DNA of 64,000 bases from the NCBI GenBank assembly GCA_018303855.1, contig JAGVXI010000006.1:1-64000 (forward strand). The letters run 5' to 3'. The notes below the pieces were generated by a model, which did no database searches, had not been told where the DNA came from, and saw only the letters and a program-made list of their open reading frames with translations. Position 1 is the stretch's first letter; every line of letters starts with the position of its first letter. The stretch comes from Candidatus Pacearchaeota archaeon (GTDB lineage: Archaea > Nanobdellota > Nanobdellia > Pacearchaeales > GW2011-AR1). A program made the translations under genes and the position numbers. Below are positions 3,530 to 57,640 of this stretch, one piece after another.

Positions 3530-4048
3530 TTATTTTTTATCTAAATATCCATGCAAAATAATTCCATTTATTAAATTTATATAAAATTCTTTAGATATTG
3601 AATTATAATTAGTAACAATTAAATGAATTTTTCTTGAGAGGACTTTCTCAAATTTGGATAAATCAATTTGTTTATCATTTTCAGATATGGCTACTAAATC
3701 AATATCACTATTCTCTATGTCCTCGCCAAATGAATAGCTACCAACAACTGAAATAGATTTAGGAGAAAGTTCTTTGATTAATAAGTCAATAACTCCTGAA
3801 TTGCATATACTCTTAAGATTATAGATTCTCTTTTCCCTTTTAAATTTTTCATTAATTTTAGCAGCAACTTCTACAATATGTTTTTTTCTCTCTTTTGTAA
3901 TTAAATCCTCATTGCTTAATTCTTTGATTAAATTTATAATAGTATTGGGGTTCAAATTTGTAAGCCTTGCTAATTCCCTTACATGAAAAGCTTCAGTTGG
4001 TTTTTTGAAGAAAACTTCTAGCACCTTGTTTTTATTTGAACTCAACAT
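3530..4048 (-). CDS. wHTH-MNT nucleotidyltransferase
   Basis: N-terminal HTH (HVRELARLTNLNPNTIINLIKEL) plus VVGSYSFGEDIENSDIDLV; likely ATG at 4048 (ORF track start at 4057 uses TTG). Confidence 0.8.
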   Translation of the reverse strand: MLSSNKNKVLEVFFKKPTEAFHVRELARLTNLNPNTIINLIKELSNEDLITKERKKHIVEVAAKINEKFKREKRIYNLKSICNSGVIDLLIKELSPKSISVVGSYSFGEDIENSDIDLVAISENDKQIDLSKFEKVLSRKIHLIVTNYNSISKEFYINLINGIILHGYLDKK

Positions 4049-4050
4049 TT

Positions 4051-4084
4051 TATACAATTGTATTTTTATTTATACACTTGTATA
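4051..4084. promoter_or_regulatory. Two operator-like palindromes TATACAATTGTATT and TATACACTTGTATA, 20 bp apart
   Basis: Read directly at 4051-4064 and 4071-4084; flank the start of the MNT gene. Confidence 0.55.
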
Positions 4085-4214
4085 ATTTTTTATGTTTATA
4101 AACTTTTCTTTTTATCTTTAAATCTTTTTTCAGAAACCGCACGCCACAAAAAGTCTTCTGCCATGATTTAAATAAGAATAAGGAATTTTTAAAGTTAGTT
4201 ATTATTAATGAAAA

Positions 4215-5015
4215 TCAAACATTAACTATTTTCCAACCACAAACACCAAGGTTATAAACTTCTGTTTTTCCTATTTTTGCCTTACCTTCTCCTTCATGAA
4301 TATGCCCACAAAAAACATATCTTGGTTGTTTCTCTTTAATGTAATTAAGGATAACTTTACTTCCTGCATGTTTCCCTCTCCACTTTTTTGGTGCTCCATA
4401 CTTCCCACTTACTTTGTCCAAATAACCGTAAGGGGGCTGATGGCATACTAAAATATCAACTCCCTTAAAACGTTCCAAAATTTTCTTTGCTTTATTTGTT
4501 TGTTTTTTAGCTTTTTTTAAACTTTTATGATAATCAGATGGTTTAAAATCCATAACCCAATTAGTATCTACAAAATATTCAAGAAAACCTATTCTTAAAC
4601 CTTCAATCATTTTTAATCTGTTTTTTATCAATGTAACATCTTTAATTTTATTAATTTCTTTTCGTGTACTTTTTAGGTTTAAATTGTATTTTTCATTATC
4701 TTTTTTTACATTAGATATACTTGGAATTCCTACGTTCCCTTGAATTGTATAAACAGGAGCATATTTTGATAGATATTTTAGTATATTAATTGTAGAGAAA
4801 TGTATTTCATTATGAACAGATTTTATACTCTTGGCACTGTCTTTTAATTTCTTAAGTCCTTTTCTTTTTCTTTCAATATTTTCAAATGCCCTTTTTCTTG
4901 CTAAATCGGCTTTACCTAAATCTCCTGTTATTAAAATTAAATCAACATCGTTTAGTGGGATTTTCTTCAATGTTTTTAAATTTCCGTGCGGATCCCCAAT
5001 AGCCAATATTTTCAT
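4215..5015 (-). CDS. Metallophosphoesterase
   Basis: GDPHGN, GDLGKADLA, QGNVG, CHQPPYG, CGHIHEGEG motifs. Confidence 0.9.
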   Translation of the reverse strand: MKILAIGDPHGNLKTLKKIPLNDVDLILITGDLGKADLARKRAFENIERKRKGLKKLKDSAKSIKSVHNEIHFSTINILKYLSKYAPVYTIQGNVGIPSISNVKKDNEKYNLNLKSTRKEINKIKDVTLIKNRLKMIEGLRIGFLEYFVDTNWVMDFKPSDYHKSLKKAKKQTNKAKKILERFKGVDILVCHQPPYGYLDKVSGKYGAPKKWRGKHAGSKVILNYIKEKQPRYVFCGHIHEGEGKAKIGKTEVYNLGVCGWKIVNV

Positions 5016-5071
5016 TTTAATATTTTTAAGAACAGAAACAACTTTTTAAAACATCTCAAAAATCAAAAACC

Positions 5072-13712: not shown

Positions 13713-13800
13713 TGGGCCTGCAGGGATTTGAACCCCGATTTCCCGGTTTCTTCAACAAAATCACCGAAGCCGGGGAGTCTATCCATTGACTTACAAGCCC
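13713..13800 (-). tRNA. tRNA-Arg(TCG) with ~16-nt intron at 37/38
   Basis: Acceptor GGGCTTG/CAGGCCC; anticodon stem CCCGG/CCGGG; CTTC/GAAG central helix with AAA bulge, BHB-like; T-arm GGGGTTCAAATCCC. Confidence 0.88.
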
Positions 13801-14413: not shown

Positions 14414-15265
14414 ATGCCATTGCAAAGACATCACAAAATCCTTATTGGGGGACTTAGTAGCTTAGTCATAATTTACATGATAATTAATGGCATTTTTCTT
14501 TATATGCTATACCTTCAACTTGATGCAAATTATAATGCATTAAACAAAAAAATCACAGAAATGCAGGCAGAAACAGAAAATAAGATAATTGAGCTCTCTG
14601 AAAATGTTTTGCAGACTAGAGAAGATCTTGGCACAACAATAAGCTCATTAAATAAACAGATTGACCAGGTAAAAGCGCAAACAAGTGCTGACTTTTCTGA
14701 TATTATTGAAGAATCAATTCCAAGCGTTGTAACAATAAAAACAGATGTTGCCCAGGGAACAGGGTTTATAATTCACAAAGATGGATACATTGTTACAAAT
14801 GCTCATGTTTTAGCAGGAGGAAGAGAAATATATGCAGTTACTTCAGATCAAAAGGTGTATGAAGCTAAATTTTATGGATACAGCCTGGATTTAGATGTGG
14901 CGCTTCTAAAAATTTTAGGCACATACTCTGCTTTGGAACTAAGTGACTCCAATGAAGTCCAGGTTGGAGAGAAAGTTATTGCCATTGGAAATCCTCTTGG
15001 ATTGCAATTTTCTGTGACAGAAGGAATTGTTTCTAACTTGCACATGAAAGGAACAAATAATTTAGATGCTTACATACAAACTGATGCTGCCCTTAATCCA
15101 GGCAATTCAGGGGGGCCATTAATTAATAAACAAGGGGAAGTTATTGGAATGAATAACTTTAAAATAGGCGGAAGCGAGGGCTTGGGATTTGCATTAGAAT
15201 CAAATTATATAAAGCAGGTTATCAATGAAATAGCCAATGACGTATTAGCTACAGACATTACTTAA
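14414..15265 (+). CDS. HtrA/DegP-like (S1C) trypsin-like serine protease without PDZ, membrane-anchored
   Basis: N-terminal TM and coiled coil; VTNAHVLAGG, DLDVALLKI, GNSGGPL; ends shortly after protease domain. Confidence 0.9.
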   Translation: MPLQRHHKILIGGLSSLVIIYMIINGIFLYMLYLQLDANYNALNKKITEMQAETENKIIELSENVLQTREDLGTTISSLNKQIDQVKAQTSADFSDIIEESIPSVVTIKTDVAQGTGFIIHKDGYIVTNAHVLAGGREIYAVTSDQKVYEAKFYGYSLDLDVALLKILGTYSALELSDSNEVQVGEKVIAIGNPLGLQFSVTEGIVSNLHMKGTNNLDAYIQTDAALNPGNSGGPLINKQGEVIGMNNFKIGGSEGLGFALESNYIKQVINEIANDVLATDIT

Positions 15266-15283: not shown

Positions 15284-16795
15284 ATGGCGAACAGAAAAAA
15301 GGATAAAGACAACAGCAAAAGAATAAACCAGGAAAAAAATGATAGTGTAAATCAGGATAAAGCAACATTTAACATTTCAAAATATAAAAATTTTAGCGAG
15401 TGGTACACTGAAATTCTTAAAAAAGCAGAGATTGTAGATATAAGATATAATATCAAAGGTTTTCTTGTTCACCAACCATGGAGTGTTTTGGCTGTTGAAA
15501 AAATGTATAGGCAAATAGAAAAGGCACTTCAGAAAAAAGGGCATCTGCCATATTTTTTTCCAACACTAATTCCTGAATCCAACTTAAAAAAAGAAGCATC
15601 GCATATAAGCAAATTTACCCCAGAGGTCTTTTGGGTAACGCATGGAGGTAACACAAAATTCGAAGAGAGATTAGCATTAAGGCCGACTAGTGAAACAGCC
15701 TTTTACCAGATGTTTTCTTTATGGATTAGAAGTTATAAAGATTTGCCGTTTAAAACTTATCAAAGAGCGCAAGTGTTCAGGCATGATACAAAAGCAACGC
15801 GCCCATTATTAAGGGACAGGGAATTTTACTGGATAGAGTCGCATTGCGCACATGCAACAGAAAAAGATGCTATTAACCAGGTTAGAGAGGATATGGAAAC
15901 AACAAAAGAAGTTTTGCATGATATTTTTGGTTTGCCATTTATATTTTTTGAAAGACCTATTTGGGATAAATTTCCAGGAGCAGCAAGAACATTCGCTGCA
16001 GATGTGCTAAACCCAGATGGAAAATTAGTACAACAACCTTCAACTCACTTAATAAGCAGAGAATTTTCAAAAGCCTTCGATGTAAAATTTAAAGACAAAG
16101 ACAGCAAAGAGAAATATGCATTTCTAACCTGTTATGGTCCTGCAATTTCAAGAATACTTGCGTCTGTAATAATTGTTCATGGAGATAATAAGGGGCTTAA
16201 ATTTCCCTGGCACATAGCCCCAAAGCAAGTTGTAATAACAACTATTGGAAATGATAAATTAACAAAAAACAAGGCAGAACAATTAAAACAAAGATTAGAA
16301 GAAGCTGGAGTAGATACCATCATAGATAACTCTGACGCACGACCTGGGGAGAAATTTTATTTTTGGGAGATGAAAGGAGTCCCATTAAGGATAGAGCTGG
16401 GTAAAAACGAAATTAAAAGCAAAACTTTAATGATATTTAGGCGGGACATTAATAAGAAAGATAAAATAAACGAGTCAGAATTAATAGAGTATATCAAAAA
16501 AACTTCCAAACAATATAATGATAACCTATTCAAGTCCGCAGATGATTTATTTAAGGATAGGATAGTTGATGCAAAATCTCCTGAAGAAGCAAAAGCTGCA
16601 ATAGAAACCGGCAAAATTGCAAGATGTAATTTTTGTTCAACAAATAGCGATGGAATTCAATGCGCAGAGATTGTTGAAAAAGAAATTAACGCTGAGGTGC
16701 GTGGAACAAAATTTGAAAAAGAAAAGCCAAAGGGGAATTGTGTGTTCTGTAAAAAACCAGCAAAAGAGGTTGTGTACATAGGCAGAAGTTATTAA
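15284..16795 (+). CDS. proS: Prolyl-tRNA synthetase, archaeal/eukaryotic type
   Basis: RPTSETAFYQMFSLWIRSYKDLP; C-terminal CNFC...CVFCKK and terminal ...GRSY. Confidence 0.94.
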   Translation: MANRKKDKDNSKRINQEKNDSVNQDKATFNISKYKNFSEWYTEILKKAEIVDIRYNIKGFLVHQPWSVLAVEKMYRQIEKALQKKGHLPYFFPTLIPESNLKKEASHISKFTPEVFWVTHGGNTKFEERLALRPTSETAFYQMFSLWIRSYKDLPFKTYQRAQVFRHDTKATRPLLRDREFYWIESHCAHATEKDAINQVREDMETTKEVLHDIFGLPFIFFERPIWDKFPGAARTFAADVLNPDGKLVQQPSTHLISREFSKAFDVKFKDKDSKEKYAFLTCYGPAISRILASVIIVHGDNKGLKFPWHIAPKQVVITTIGNDKLTKNKAEQLKQRLEEAGVDTIIDNSDARPGEKFYFWEMKGVPLRIELGKNEIKSKTLMIFRRDINKKDKINESELIEYIKKTSKQYNDNLFKSADDLFKDRIVDAKSPEEAKAAIETGKIARCNFCSTNSDGIQCAEIVEKEINAEVRGTKFEKEKPKGNCVFCKKPAKEVVYIGRSY

Positions 16796-18087: not shown

Positions 18088-19137
18088 CTATTTTGCAAGT
18101 TCTTTTAAACTTTTCCTGAATTTCCCCAAATTTTCAATCCTCATCTGAACGCCAACAGCATTTTCATGCCCGCCCCCAGTAGCCCCATCAATATCCTCAA
18201 TTGATTTTAAAACAGCTTCCCTAATCTTCTCGCCCCTAACTGAAATATTAGCTTTTATTCCTGTAACATAAACAACAACTATAATCTTTTTCGGAAATCT
18301 GTAACTTAATTCATTGGATAAATCAGAGCTTATACTCAAATCCCCCCCATATTGGAAAAACAGTAATTTCCCTCCTTTCTTGTAATGATCTTCTGCCTTA
18401 ATTAAAAGCTTCATATACCTGCCATGAATCTGCCTAAATCGTTTATGCATAGTATAATTTCTTTTATCCTCTTCTAAAATTTCATACGGCATTTTAACCT
18501 GAACTAAAAATTTCAGCATGTTAACCACATTGGTAATTGAATCTTTAAGAGCAAAGCTGAATATCCTTGCAATTTTTCCAATCTGAGAAGTGTAATATAC
18601 ATCAAAAGCATTTTTACTTTCTATTGATAAATCAGCATACTTTTTCGTAAAATCTTCATAAAAATCAGGAAGATGCCTATCTGAAATACATCCTACTACA
18701 GCAAACCAGATATCTTCCTTTTTATTTGCAACCTGATAGCAAAGAAAAGTTGTGGGTTCAGTGCTTTTTTGTTCATTGAGAGTTGGATTGTAGTATTTAA
18801 CTAACTCTGAAAATCTGTTCGCATTTTGAATTTCATGATGATCAATCCACACAATTGGGATATTATATTTTTCAGCTTCTTTTAAAAATTCATCTGCTAC
18901 TAATGGTTTATCCAGAATAAAAATGTAATCAGCTTTTAATTCCTGCACTTTTCTAAAATAGCTTGCATTTAGTTCTGGAAAAGATCTTATCGGCACGCCT
19001 TTTCCTTTTCCAAAAGCTCTTCTCAATAATAAAAAAGAGCACAATCCGTCAGCATCATTGTCAAAAAAGAATAGGGGATTATGGCTCTGCTCTAAATATT
19101 CTCTAATTTCTTTAATTTGTTTTTCTGTAAAACCCAT
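18088..19137 (-). CDS. DHH/DHHA1 phosphoesterase
   Basis: FFDNDADGLCSFLLLRR, WIDHHEI, DIDGATGGGHENAVGVQ motifs. Confidence 0.88.
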   Translation of the reverse strand: MGFTEKQIKEIREYLEQSHNPLFFFDNDADGLCSFLLLRRAFGKGKGVPIRSFPELNASYFRKVQELKADYIFILDKPLVADEFLKEAEKYNIPIVWIDHHEIQNANRFSELVKYYNPTLNEQKSTEPTTFLCYQVANKKEDIWFAVVGCISDRHLPDFYEDFTKKYADLSIESKNAFDVYYTSQIGKIARIFSFALKDSITNVVNMLKFLVQVKMPYEILEEDKRNYTMHKRFRQIHGRYMKLLIKAEDHYKKGGKLLFFQYGGDLSISSDLSNELSYRFPKKIIVVVYVTGIKANISVRGEKIREAVLKSIEDIDGATGGGHENAVGVQMRIENLGKFRKSLKELAK

Positions 19138-19151
19138 TTTTAGTATAGATG

Positions 19152-20306
19152 CTATAATTTTCGTCTTGACATAATTTTATCTTTTAGGCTTTGCAATTCC
19201 TGCTGGAAATATTCTACTAATTCTTTCTTTTTTAATACCTTCATCAAAGCTTCTTCATTTGCATCCAAAAGCTTATCAAGAGTTTTGAATATATCTATTA
19301 AAGATTTTTTATTTGTAATAAGTAAGTTTGTCTTGCTCAAAATCCTCACTCCACTGGGGGATATTGGCTTGTCATGCAATTCACCAAAGAGCAACCTTGA
19401 GATATTTGATGTTTCAAGCAAAAAATCAAAATTCATATTCTTTAAAATGGTTTCAGCCCTTAAATGTTTTTTAGCAAAATAGTCCTTTAAAATTAGCTCT
19501 TTTTCTCTTGAAATATTTTTCATAAGTTCCTTAAGTCTCATGCTTACAATCGCGCCTTCTTTACCCAATTCTACCAAGTATCTTTTAACAATAGATGCAA
19601 CATTGCCAACAATTTCAATTCTCTGCAAAACATTGCTCACATCAGTAATAGTCACCAAATTATTTATTTCCATTATGTTTAGGTTTGCCAAGAGATCATC
19701 ATAAATTTCCCGTTGTTTCTCAAGTATCTGGAGGGTTTCAGCTGCCCTTCTTAAAATTTCAGAACTCTCTTCTAAAACATGGTGTTCGTCTCCATAATAA
19801 ATAGTTATCTTATTCTTTCTTTCAGAAACTGCAATTACAATTGTCTTTATTTGTTTTGCAGCTCTTTCTGCAGCTTTATGCCTTGTACCTGTTTCTCTTG
19901 TAGAAATGTCTATCTTTGGCACAAGAAGAGTGTTAACATAAAGTATTTTTTTAAAATCATTTGAGATAATTATTGCCCCATCCATTTTTGCAAATTCTAT
20001 TAGCCTTTGAGGTGAAAACTTGCAACTTATTTTAAACCCCCCTTCAACAATATCAAAAAGTTTTTCTTTTTCAACAACAATTAATGCCCCCATATTTGCC
20101 CTCAATAAATCGTCAAGTGCAACCCTAATAGCTGTTCCAGGAGCAAGCATTTTTAGTACATCAAGGAAATTAAGTTCTTTTTCTTGTTTCTGGACTTCTT
20201 TTTCCTCGTCTGCCTTTTTCTGCTCAGGCTGCTTAGTTTTTTCATTTTGCCCAGCTTTTTCAATTTGTTCAGAATTTTGAGAAACCGCCTCTGTTTTTTG
20301 TTCCAT
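19152..20306 (-). CDS. disA: DisA-like diadenylate cyclase (c-di-AMP synthase) with linker and HhH-like C-terminus
   Basis: LLRANMGALIVV, MDGAIIIS, ETGTRHKAAERAAKQIKTIVIAVSERKNKITIYYGDEHHVL, C-terminal SPSGVRILSKT. Confidence 0.88.
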   Translation of the reverse strand: MEQKTEAVSQNSEQIEKAGQNEKTKQPEQKKADEEKEVQKQEKELNFLDVLKMLAPGTAIRVALDDLLRANMGALIVVEKEKLFDIVEGGFKISCKFSPQRLIEFAKMDGAIIISNDFKKILYVNTLLVPKIDISTRETGTRHKAAERAAKQIKTIVIAVSERKNKITIYYGDEHHVLEESSEILRRAAETLQILEKQREIYDDLLANLNIMEINNLVTITDVSNVLQRIEIVGNVASIVKRYLVELGKEGAIVSMRLKELMKNISREKELILKDYFAKKHLRAETILKNMNFDFLLETSNISRLLFGELHDKPISPSGVRILSKTNLLITNKKSLIDIFKTLDKLLDANEEALMKVLKKKELVEYFQQELQSLKDKIMSRRKL

Positions 20307-20517: not shown

Positions 20518-21432
20518 TTACAAAACTCCCGCAAAAATCAAAGGCAAAGCAATTGTTGCATCACAATAAACATCAACAAATTCAGCATCTTTGGCCATTT
20601 TTCCCCAGCTTATTCCCTCGCGTAAAGGCGCACCACTACTTCCGCCAAGCTCTTGCCTGTCTCCTGTTATTTGCACGCCATAATCAGCCCCTTTTTTTGA
20701 AAATTGCAAAGCCTGCTGAATAAAATTTTTAGGCAAACCGCCTCCAACATAAATAACCCCGTTTTTCTTTGAAGTCCATGCAACATCAATTATTTCTTTT
20801 AAATCACAAAAAACGCGGGCTTCACTTTCTCCTTTTCCGCTTGCTTCTCTACCCCACATCATCAAACCTATGCCAGAATCAGCAATTCCAGGGCAAAAGA
20901 CTGGAATATTTTTCTCCCAACATTTTTTCAAGATTCCTCTGCCAGGACACAACTCCCCGAGCTTCCATAAAAATTCTTTTATACTTCTTATATCTTTTAA
21001 CTGAGCATAATTTTCTTCAAAAAATTCTTCAAGCTCTTCATAAACTTTATTTTGCATTAAGACATTATACATTCTATCAAGCCCCTCTTCATTTAACTTA
21101 ATATCATTTGGTTCATTTTCATAACCATATTTATAATGCTTTTCACCTAAAGATTCAATTAGATCATGTGTTAAAGTAGCTCCTGTTGTAACAAAAACAT
21201 CGACTTTGTCCAGCATATCAATAATTATCTGCTTCATTCCTCCTGGAACCATTGCTCCTGCAACACCAAGAAAAACCTTGCATTCCTCATCCTTAAACAT
21301 ATTTGCCATAATATTAGACGCTTCAGCGATCTTAGATGCTCCAAATCCTACATCATGCATTTGCCCAACTAACTCAGAAACTTTCATGCCATTTTTGATA
21401 TGAATATGCTTGATTTCTTTTAGCTCTTTCAT
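20518..21432 (-). CDS. dys: Deoxyhypusine synthase
   Basis: VSELVGQMHDVGFGASKIAEA, VTTGATLTHDLIES, GISWGKMAKDAEFVDVYCDATIALPL. Confidence 0.92.
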   Translation of the reverse strand: MKELKEIKHIHIKNGMKVSELVGQMHDVGFGASKIAEASNIMANMFKDEECKVFLGVAGAMVPGGMKQIIIDMLDKVDVFVTTGATLTHDLIESLGEKHYKYGYENEPNDIKLNEEGLDRMYNVLMQNKVYEELEEFFEENYAQLKDIRSIKEFLWKLGELCPGRGILKKCWEKNIPVFCPGIADSGIGLMMWGREASGKGESEARVFCDLKEIIDVAWTSKKNGVIYVGGGLPKNFIQQALQFSKKGADYGVQITGDRQELGGSSGAPLREGISWGKMAKDAEFVDVYCDATIALPLIFAGVL

Positions 21433-57524: not shown

Positions 57525-57640
57525 TGCCCCCGACAGGATTTGAACCTGCGACCCCTAGCTTTCTTCCTTTTTCGTGTCTCGCGAAACCTATGCATAATGG
57601 CTAGAAGGCTAGTGCTCTATCCAGGCTGAGCTACAGGGGC
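57525..57640 (-). tRNA. tRNA-Arg(TCT) with ~41-nt intron at 37/38
   Basis: GCCCCTG/CGGGGGC acceptor; CTAGC/GCTAG anticodon stem; CTTC/GAAG central helix with AAA bulge; GCAGGTTCAAATCCTGT. Confidence 0.88.

Follow-up and report, generated by a model that had tools for sequence, protein, structure and literature searches.

A conserved archaeal variant of the diadenylate cyclase DisA adjoins a conserved phosphoesterase that is probably not dedicated to it

Introduction

Two neighbouring genes of a Candidatus Pacearchaeota archaeon raise the question of whether a small-genome archaeon carries a bacterial-type DisA, and whether the phosphoesterase encoded beside it makes the pair a complete c-di-AMP module, as a preliminary description of the sequence had proposed. 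Work on Haloferax from 2019 places the archaeal cyclases in the DacV to DacZ classes in Euryarchaeota (PMC6741144), and our literature search found no account of DisA in DPANN. With a DisA lineage that is stable in these small-genome, possibly symbiotic archaea, the c-di-AMP signal extends to them. In what follows, the window is the whole stretch of DNA that was analysed, 64,000 nucleotides in length.

Results and discussion

A DisA orthologue at a conserved archaeal locus

The features of the locus, by position in the window and strand, are as follows:
14414–15265 (+): trypsin-like (HtrA-type) protease, conserved outer flank.
15284–16795 (+): prolyl-tRNA synthetase (ProRS), flanking the locus in convergent orientation and conserved family-wide.
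18088–19137 (−): DHH-DHHA1 phosphoesterase of 349 aa, downstream of disA; the DHH metal ligands D26, D28, D30, D76, D99-H100-H101 and D153 and the DHHA1 residues G322-G323-H324 are intact.
19152–20306 (−): disA, encoding a 384 aa DisA-family diadenylate cyclase with Pfam and NCBIfam matches; disordered N-terminus (1–41), DAC domain (about 59–178), linker (about 179–310) and C-terminal domain (313–384) without the HhH GxG hairpin.
20518–21432 (−): deoxyhypusine synthase (DHS), upstream neighbour of disA.

The disA and DHH reading frames had both been called correctly in the preliminary description, with a gap of 15 bp between them; we count 14 bp (19138–19151). The disA product matched the NCBIfam DisA equivalog over residues 42–380 (322 bits, cut-off 201), as well as Pfam DAC (94 bits, cut-off 27) and the DisA linker PF10635 (106 bits, cut-off 25). 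The archaeal DacZ/CdaZ cyclases share its DAC domain and archaeal source; however, it scored 22 bits against a DacZ cut-off of 430, and it contains the DisA linker. Its nearest solved structures are bacterial DisAs, with T. maritima DisA the best (E = 4e-56), and an AlphaFold model built on 40 archaeal sequences (mean pLDDT 87) overlaid M. tuberculosis DisA over about 346 columns with a TM-score of up to 0.90 (normalised by target). The order of DAC, linker and C-terminal domain, the DGA and RH residues, the predicted fold and the full-length profile are all as in bacterial DisA of the T. maritima, M. tuberculosis and B. subtilis type. The archaeal protein differs in its host, in reading RHK or RHQ rather than RHR, in lacking the C-terminal GxG hairpin, in its charged, disordered N-terminus and in belonging to a clade of its own. 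Of the full DisA layout first described, the DAC domain and linker were borne out, while the C-terminal end has a DisA-type fold in the model but is missing the GxG hairpin. The charged N-terminal extension is present in the reading frame and is predicted to be the sole disordered part of the protein (residues 1–41, pLDDT <50).

Both the SSU and the LSU rRNA of the source genome are archaeal. At 860 kb (16 contigs, 91% complete) the genome is small, and this size, together with its many small-genome kin, fits a DPANN affiliation. When 380 genomes of the phylum were sampled, the DisA linker scored over its cut-off in 62: 57 of the 66 in the window's family (f1), four in the same order (f2, f3) and one in another family (f40). 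The phylogeny against bacterial DisA suggested at the outset separated 26 archaeal DisAs by a single branch (support 100/99) from 32 bacterial DisAs that were sampled as best matches, mostly from Bacillota and Actinomycetota. Rhomboid-like, SpoIIM-like, deoxyhypusine synthase, ProRS and HtrA-type protease genes, some of them named from a reading of the sequence by eye, flank disA in many family members, the flanking genes being common to 24 to 27 loci. The DisA found here is an established archaeal lineage and no stray gene. A bacterial-type DisA in an archaeon, as originally claimed, is upheld by the full-length family model, the archaeal rRNA and the conservation within the family with shared synteny.

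A bacterial contig as contaminant was ruled out, because these 24–27 loci have common flanks and the rRNA of the genome is archaeal. Recent transfer from a bacterium found no support, the archaeal DisAs forming one clade against that mainly Bacillota and Actinomycetota sample of best matches. A tblastn search of DisA-less relatives detected no DisA pseudogene remnants.

Elsewhere in the window, two tRNA genes, at 57525–57640 (−) and 13713–13800 (−), were detected by Rfam and missed by ARAGORN; the former is 116 nt long, with an intron probably inside.

The adjoining phosphoesterase occurs throughout the phylum

The assignment of the adjoining gene to the DHH/DHHA1 phosphoesterases was confirmed. 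Both Pfam domains were found, with scores just over their cut-offs, and the active site is intact, all metal ligands and the DHHA1 GGH being invariant in 27 disA-linked copies. The protein model (pLDDT 94.8) is closest to archaeal RecJ-type DHH enzymes and to a methanogen PAP phosphatase (TM 0.70–0.71 by target). In having DHH followed by DHHA1 within about 320–350 aa, and in its metal ligands, GGGH motif and PAP phosphatase fold, the protein is like the standalone enzymes NrnA, NrnB, archaeal pApase and Rv2837c/CnpB. Unlike NrnA, CnpB and NrnB, it has no match to the models of those names and is a core gene of its phylum; its first motif, DxDxDG, is as in RecJ and differs from that of the standalone enzymes. 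Two assayed archaeal standalone enzymes are PyapApase, a pAp-specific phosphatase inactive on c-di-AMP and pApA, and APE_0124, a nanoRNase/pApase acting on pAp and nanoRNA, while the bacterial Rv2837c hydrolyses c-di-AMP (PMC8268124). NrnB-type enzymes degrade short RNA (PMC12709177).

If the pair were a true make-and-break module, the DHH protein would be the c-di-AMP (or pApA) hydrolase for the adjoining DisA, and its gene arrangement is consistent with this. Of 61 disA loci, 31 have DHH downstream in the same orientation, with a distance of at most 250 bp in 25 and of ≤3 bp or an overlap in 12; the two genes are probably co-transcribed in many relatives. The pair is kept in f1, f2 and f3 despite a changing upstream gene (DHS, AckA-like or c13), which is acetate kinase-like in f2 and f3 and deoxyhypusine synthase or others in f1; this recurrence hints at a functional link. 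Since a search of the genome for HD hydrolases was negative and the only other DHH protein found there is RecJ-like, the DHH protein is, by elimination, the best candidate for whatever c-di-AMP turnover exists. The activity of Rv2837c on c-di-AMP also favours a module; the inactivity of the assayed archaeal pApase on both c-di-AMP and pApA speaks against it.

The distribution of DHH likewise argues against a dedicated hydrolase. Its family profile was matched in 347 of the 380 phylum genomes, almost always at full length (314 matches better than 1e-40, counted from the table), whereas any DAC domain was found in 107. DHH without a cyclase therefore occurs in at least 240 genomes. Assembly gaps may account for some of the missing DACs, but genome incompleteness cannot explain the genomes with DHH and no DAC, because many of them are 95–100% complete. 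With DisA or without it, DHH has the same catalytic residues, the one difference being an H that replaces D26 in 8 of the 59 copies not linked to disA, and the DisA-less relatives G266 and G340 have DHH at full score (569–570 bits). The DisA tree requires no fewer than 9 changes of adjacency, and in a second clade of the family DisA is unlinked from DHH. At L208 and L209, in whose genomes no DAC was found, and at L216–L218, whose genomes have DisA elsewhere, DHS directly precedes DHH with no disA between, as if disA had been removed or never inserted.

From its presence in DAC-free genomes, its unchanged catalytic residues and its unstable adjacency, we conclude that DHH is most likely a phylum-wide housekeeping phosphoesterase, a nanoRNase or pAp phosphatase, a role that PyapApase and APE_0124 would fit by analogy. 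The proposed complete c-di-AMP module is therefore retained here as a conserved pair; its completeness is difficult to reconcile with a near-universal DHH whose active site does not differ between relatives with and without DisA, and we regard a true module as unlikely. The reading that we favour, and hold to be reasonably probable, is a DisA orthologue that makes c-di-AMP without DNA sensing, next to a housekeeping DHH protein that is not dedicated to it. As a side activity, the DHH protein may remove c-di-AMP or pApA, though it would not owe its existence to c-di-AMP.

At L205, a 362-aa reading frame (3930–5018, +), PLP-decarboxylase-like by sequence reading, occupies the disA slot between DHS and DHH. 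In other families (L039, L054, L089, L213, L224 and L260), a transglutaminase-like gene (about 640 aa) comes after DHH. The DHH gene there is often close to an acetate kinase-like gene or to the gene for ribosomal protein L15e, the whole forming an older synteny block.

The cyclase core is conserved

In all 61 archaeal DisAs, D109 and G110 of the DGA motif and the R and H of the RHR motif are invariant. The preliminary description was right that the motif reads RHK in the window protein (residues 142–144). The exact RHR is absent there, and K is usual for the clade: 52 archaeal DisAs have K as the third residue, 7 have Q and 2 have R, while all 32 bacterial DisAs have R. Judged by these residues and the model, the window DisA is most likely a c-di-AMP synthase with an intact DAC active site, at which it would join two ATP into c-di-AMP.

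Alternatively, RHK could impair catalysis, with DisA retained as a structural or ATP-binding protein. This would agree with the K or Q found as third residue in 59 of the 61 proteins, and with the loss of activity of M. tuberculosis DisA when RHR is changed to AAA (PMC3328451). However, the AAA mutant is uninformative about K, which is a conservative change next to an invariant R and H, and conservation of the DAC domain equals that of bacteria (identity within the set of 0.585 for f1 and 0.575 for the bacterial DisAs). An impaired DisA is thus highly improbable, and we proceed with an active synthase as the preferred reading.

The C-terminal domain has lost the DNA-binding hairpin

A G[IVL]G sequence was present within the last 80 aa in 2 of 61 archaeal DisAs, compared with 31 of 32 bacterial ones, where the exception was a truncated row. 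At the aligned position of the hairpin, only L089 (family f2) among the 61 has GxG; the f40 protein (L084) keeps a partial hairpin motif, and the HhH GxG motif is absent from every f1 DisA. The C-terminal domain drifts far faster in archaeal than in bacterial DisA, its identity within the set being 0.33 for f1 and 0.515 for bacteria at equal DAC identity. This difference suggests relaxed or changed selection on the DNA-binding part of f1 DisA. With the hairpin lost, archaeal DisA is probably a synthase without branched-DNA sensing, and would be controlled in another way. Deletion of the C-terminal HhH domain sharply reduced the activity of M. tuberculosis DisA (PMC3328451), so by analogy the changed archaeal end might alter catalysis as well as sensing.

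The missing hairpin also weighs against another reading, which we think very unlikely: that DHH is a DNA nuclease of the RecJ kind and forms a DNA-repair unit with DisA, the latter monitoring recombination intermediates. In sequence and fold the DHH protein best matches archaeal RecJ-Cdc45, RecJ2 and GAN, in their DHH domains. However, a separate RecJ-like nuclease of 439 aa (326 bits) is encoded in the genome, and the DHH protein is shorter than these archaeal enzymes by about 90 aa or more. Nor does it group firmly with RecJ/GAN, an outcome considered in the preliminary description, as its scores fall far under the family cut-offs (50 bits against 397 for TIGR00644 and 32 against 360 for RecJ_archaeal).

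Other c-di-AMP components and wider meaning

One protein of the source genome has a pair of CBS domains. In some bacteria such domains bind c-di-AMP, which makes this protein a candidate receptor by analogy. CdaR, HD and TrkH domains were not found in the source genome, nor was RCK_C, which had 34 matches in the phylum sample, none of them from f1.

A broader picture can be drawn, though we offer it tentatively and think it doubtful: DisA would be an old inheritance of the archaeal order, since deprived of its DNA sensing, and c-di-AMP signalling would run without any of the known receptor classes, perhaps with a housekeeping nanoRNase that serves as hydrolase through operon linkage. In the archaeal DisAs the cyclase core is kept although the DNA-sensing tip has decayed, and they therefore provide a natural test of whether the essential output of DisA is c-di-AMP itself or DNA surveillance.

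A second DAC protein is encoded in the same genome on contig C4 (L002:1444–2028, +). It has 194 aa, MDGAV and GTRHS motifs and a hydrophobic C-terminus, and no named DAC class scored over its cut-off. Short DACs like it occur in a good part of the family and are the sole DAC in other families. In one subclade (L090, L091 and L094), the unlinked disA is followed by a gene for a membrane protein of about 204 aa (cluster 72), a possible target or partner.
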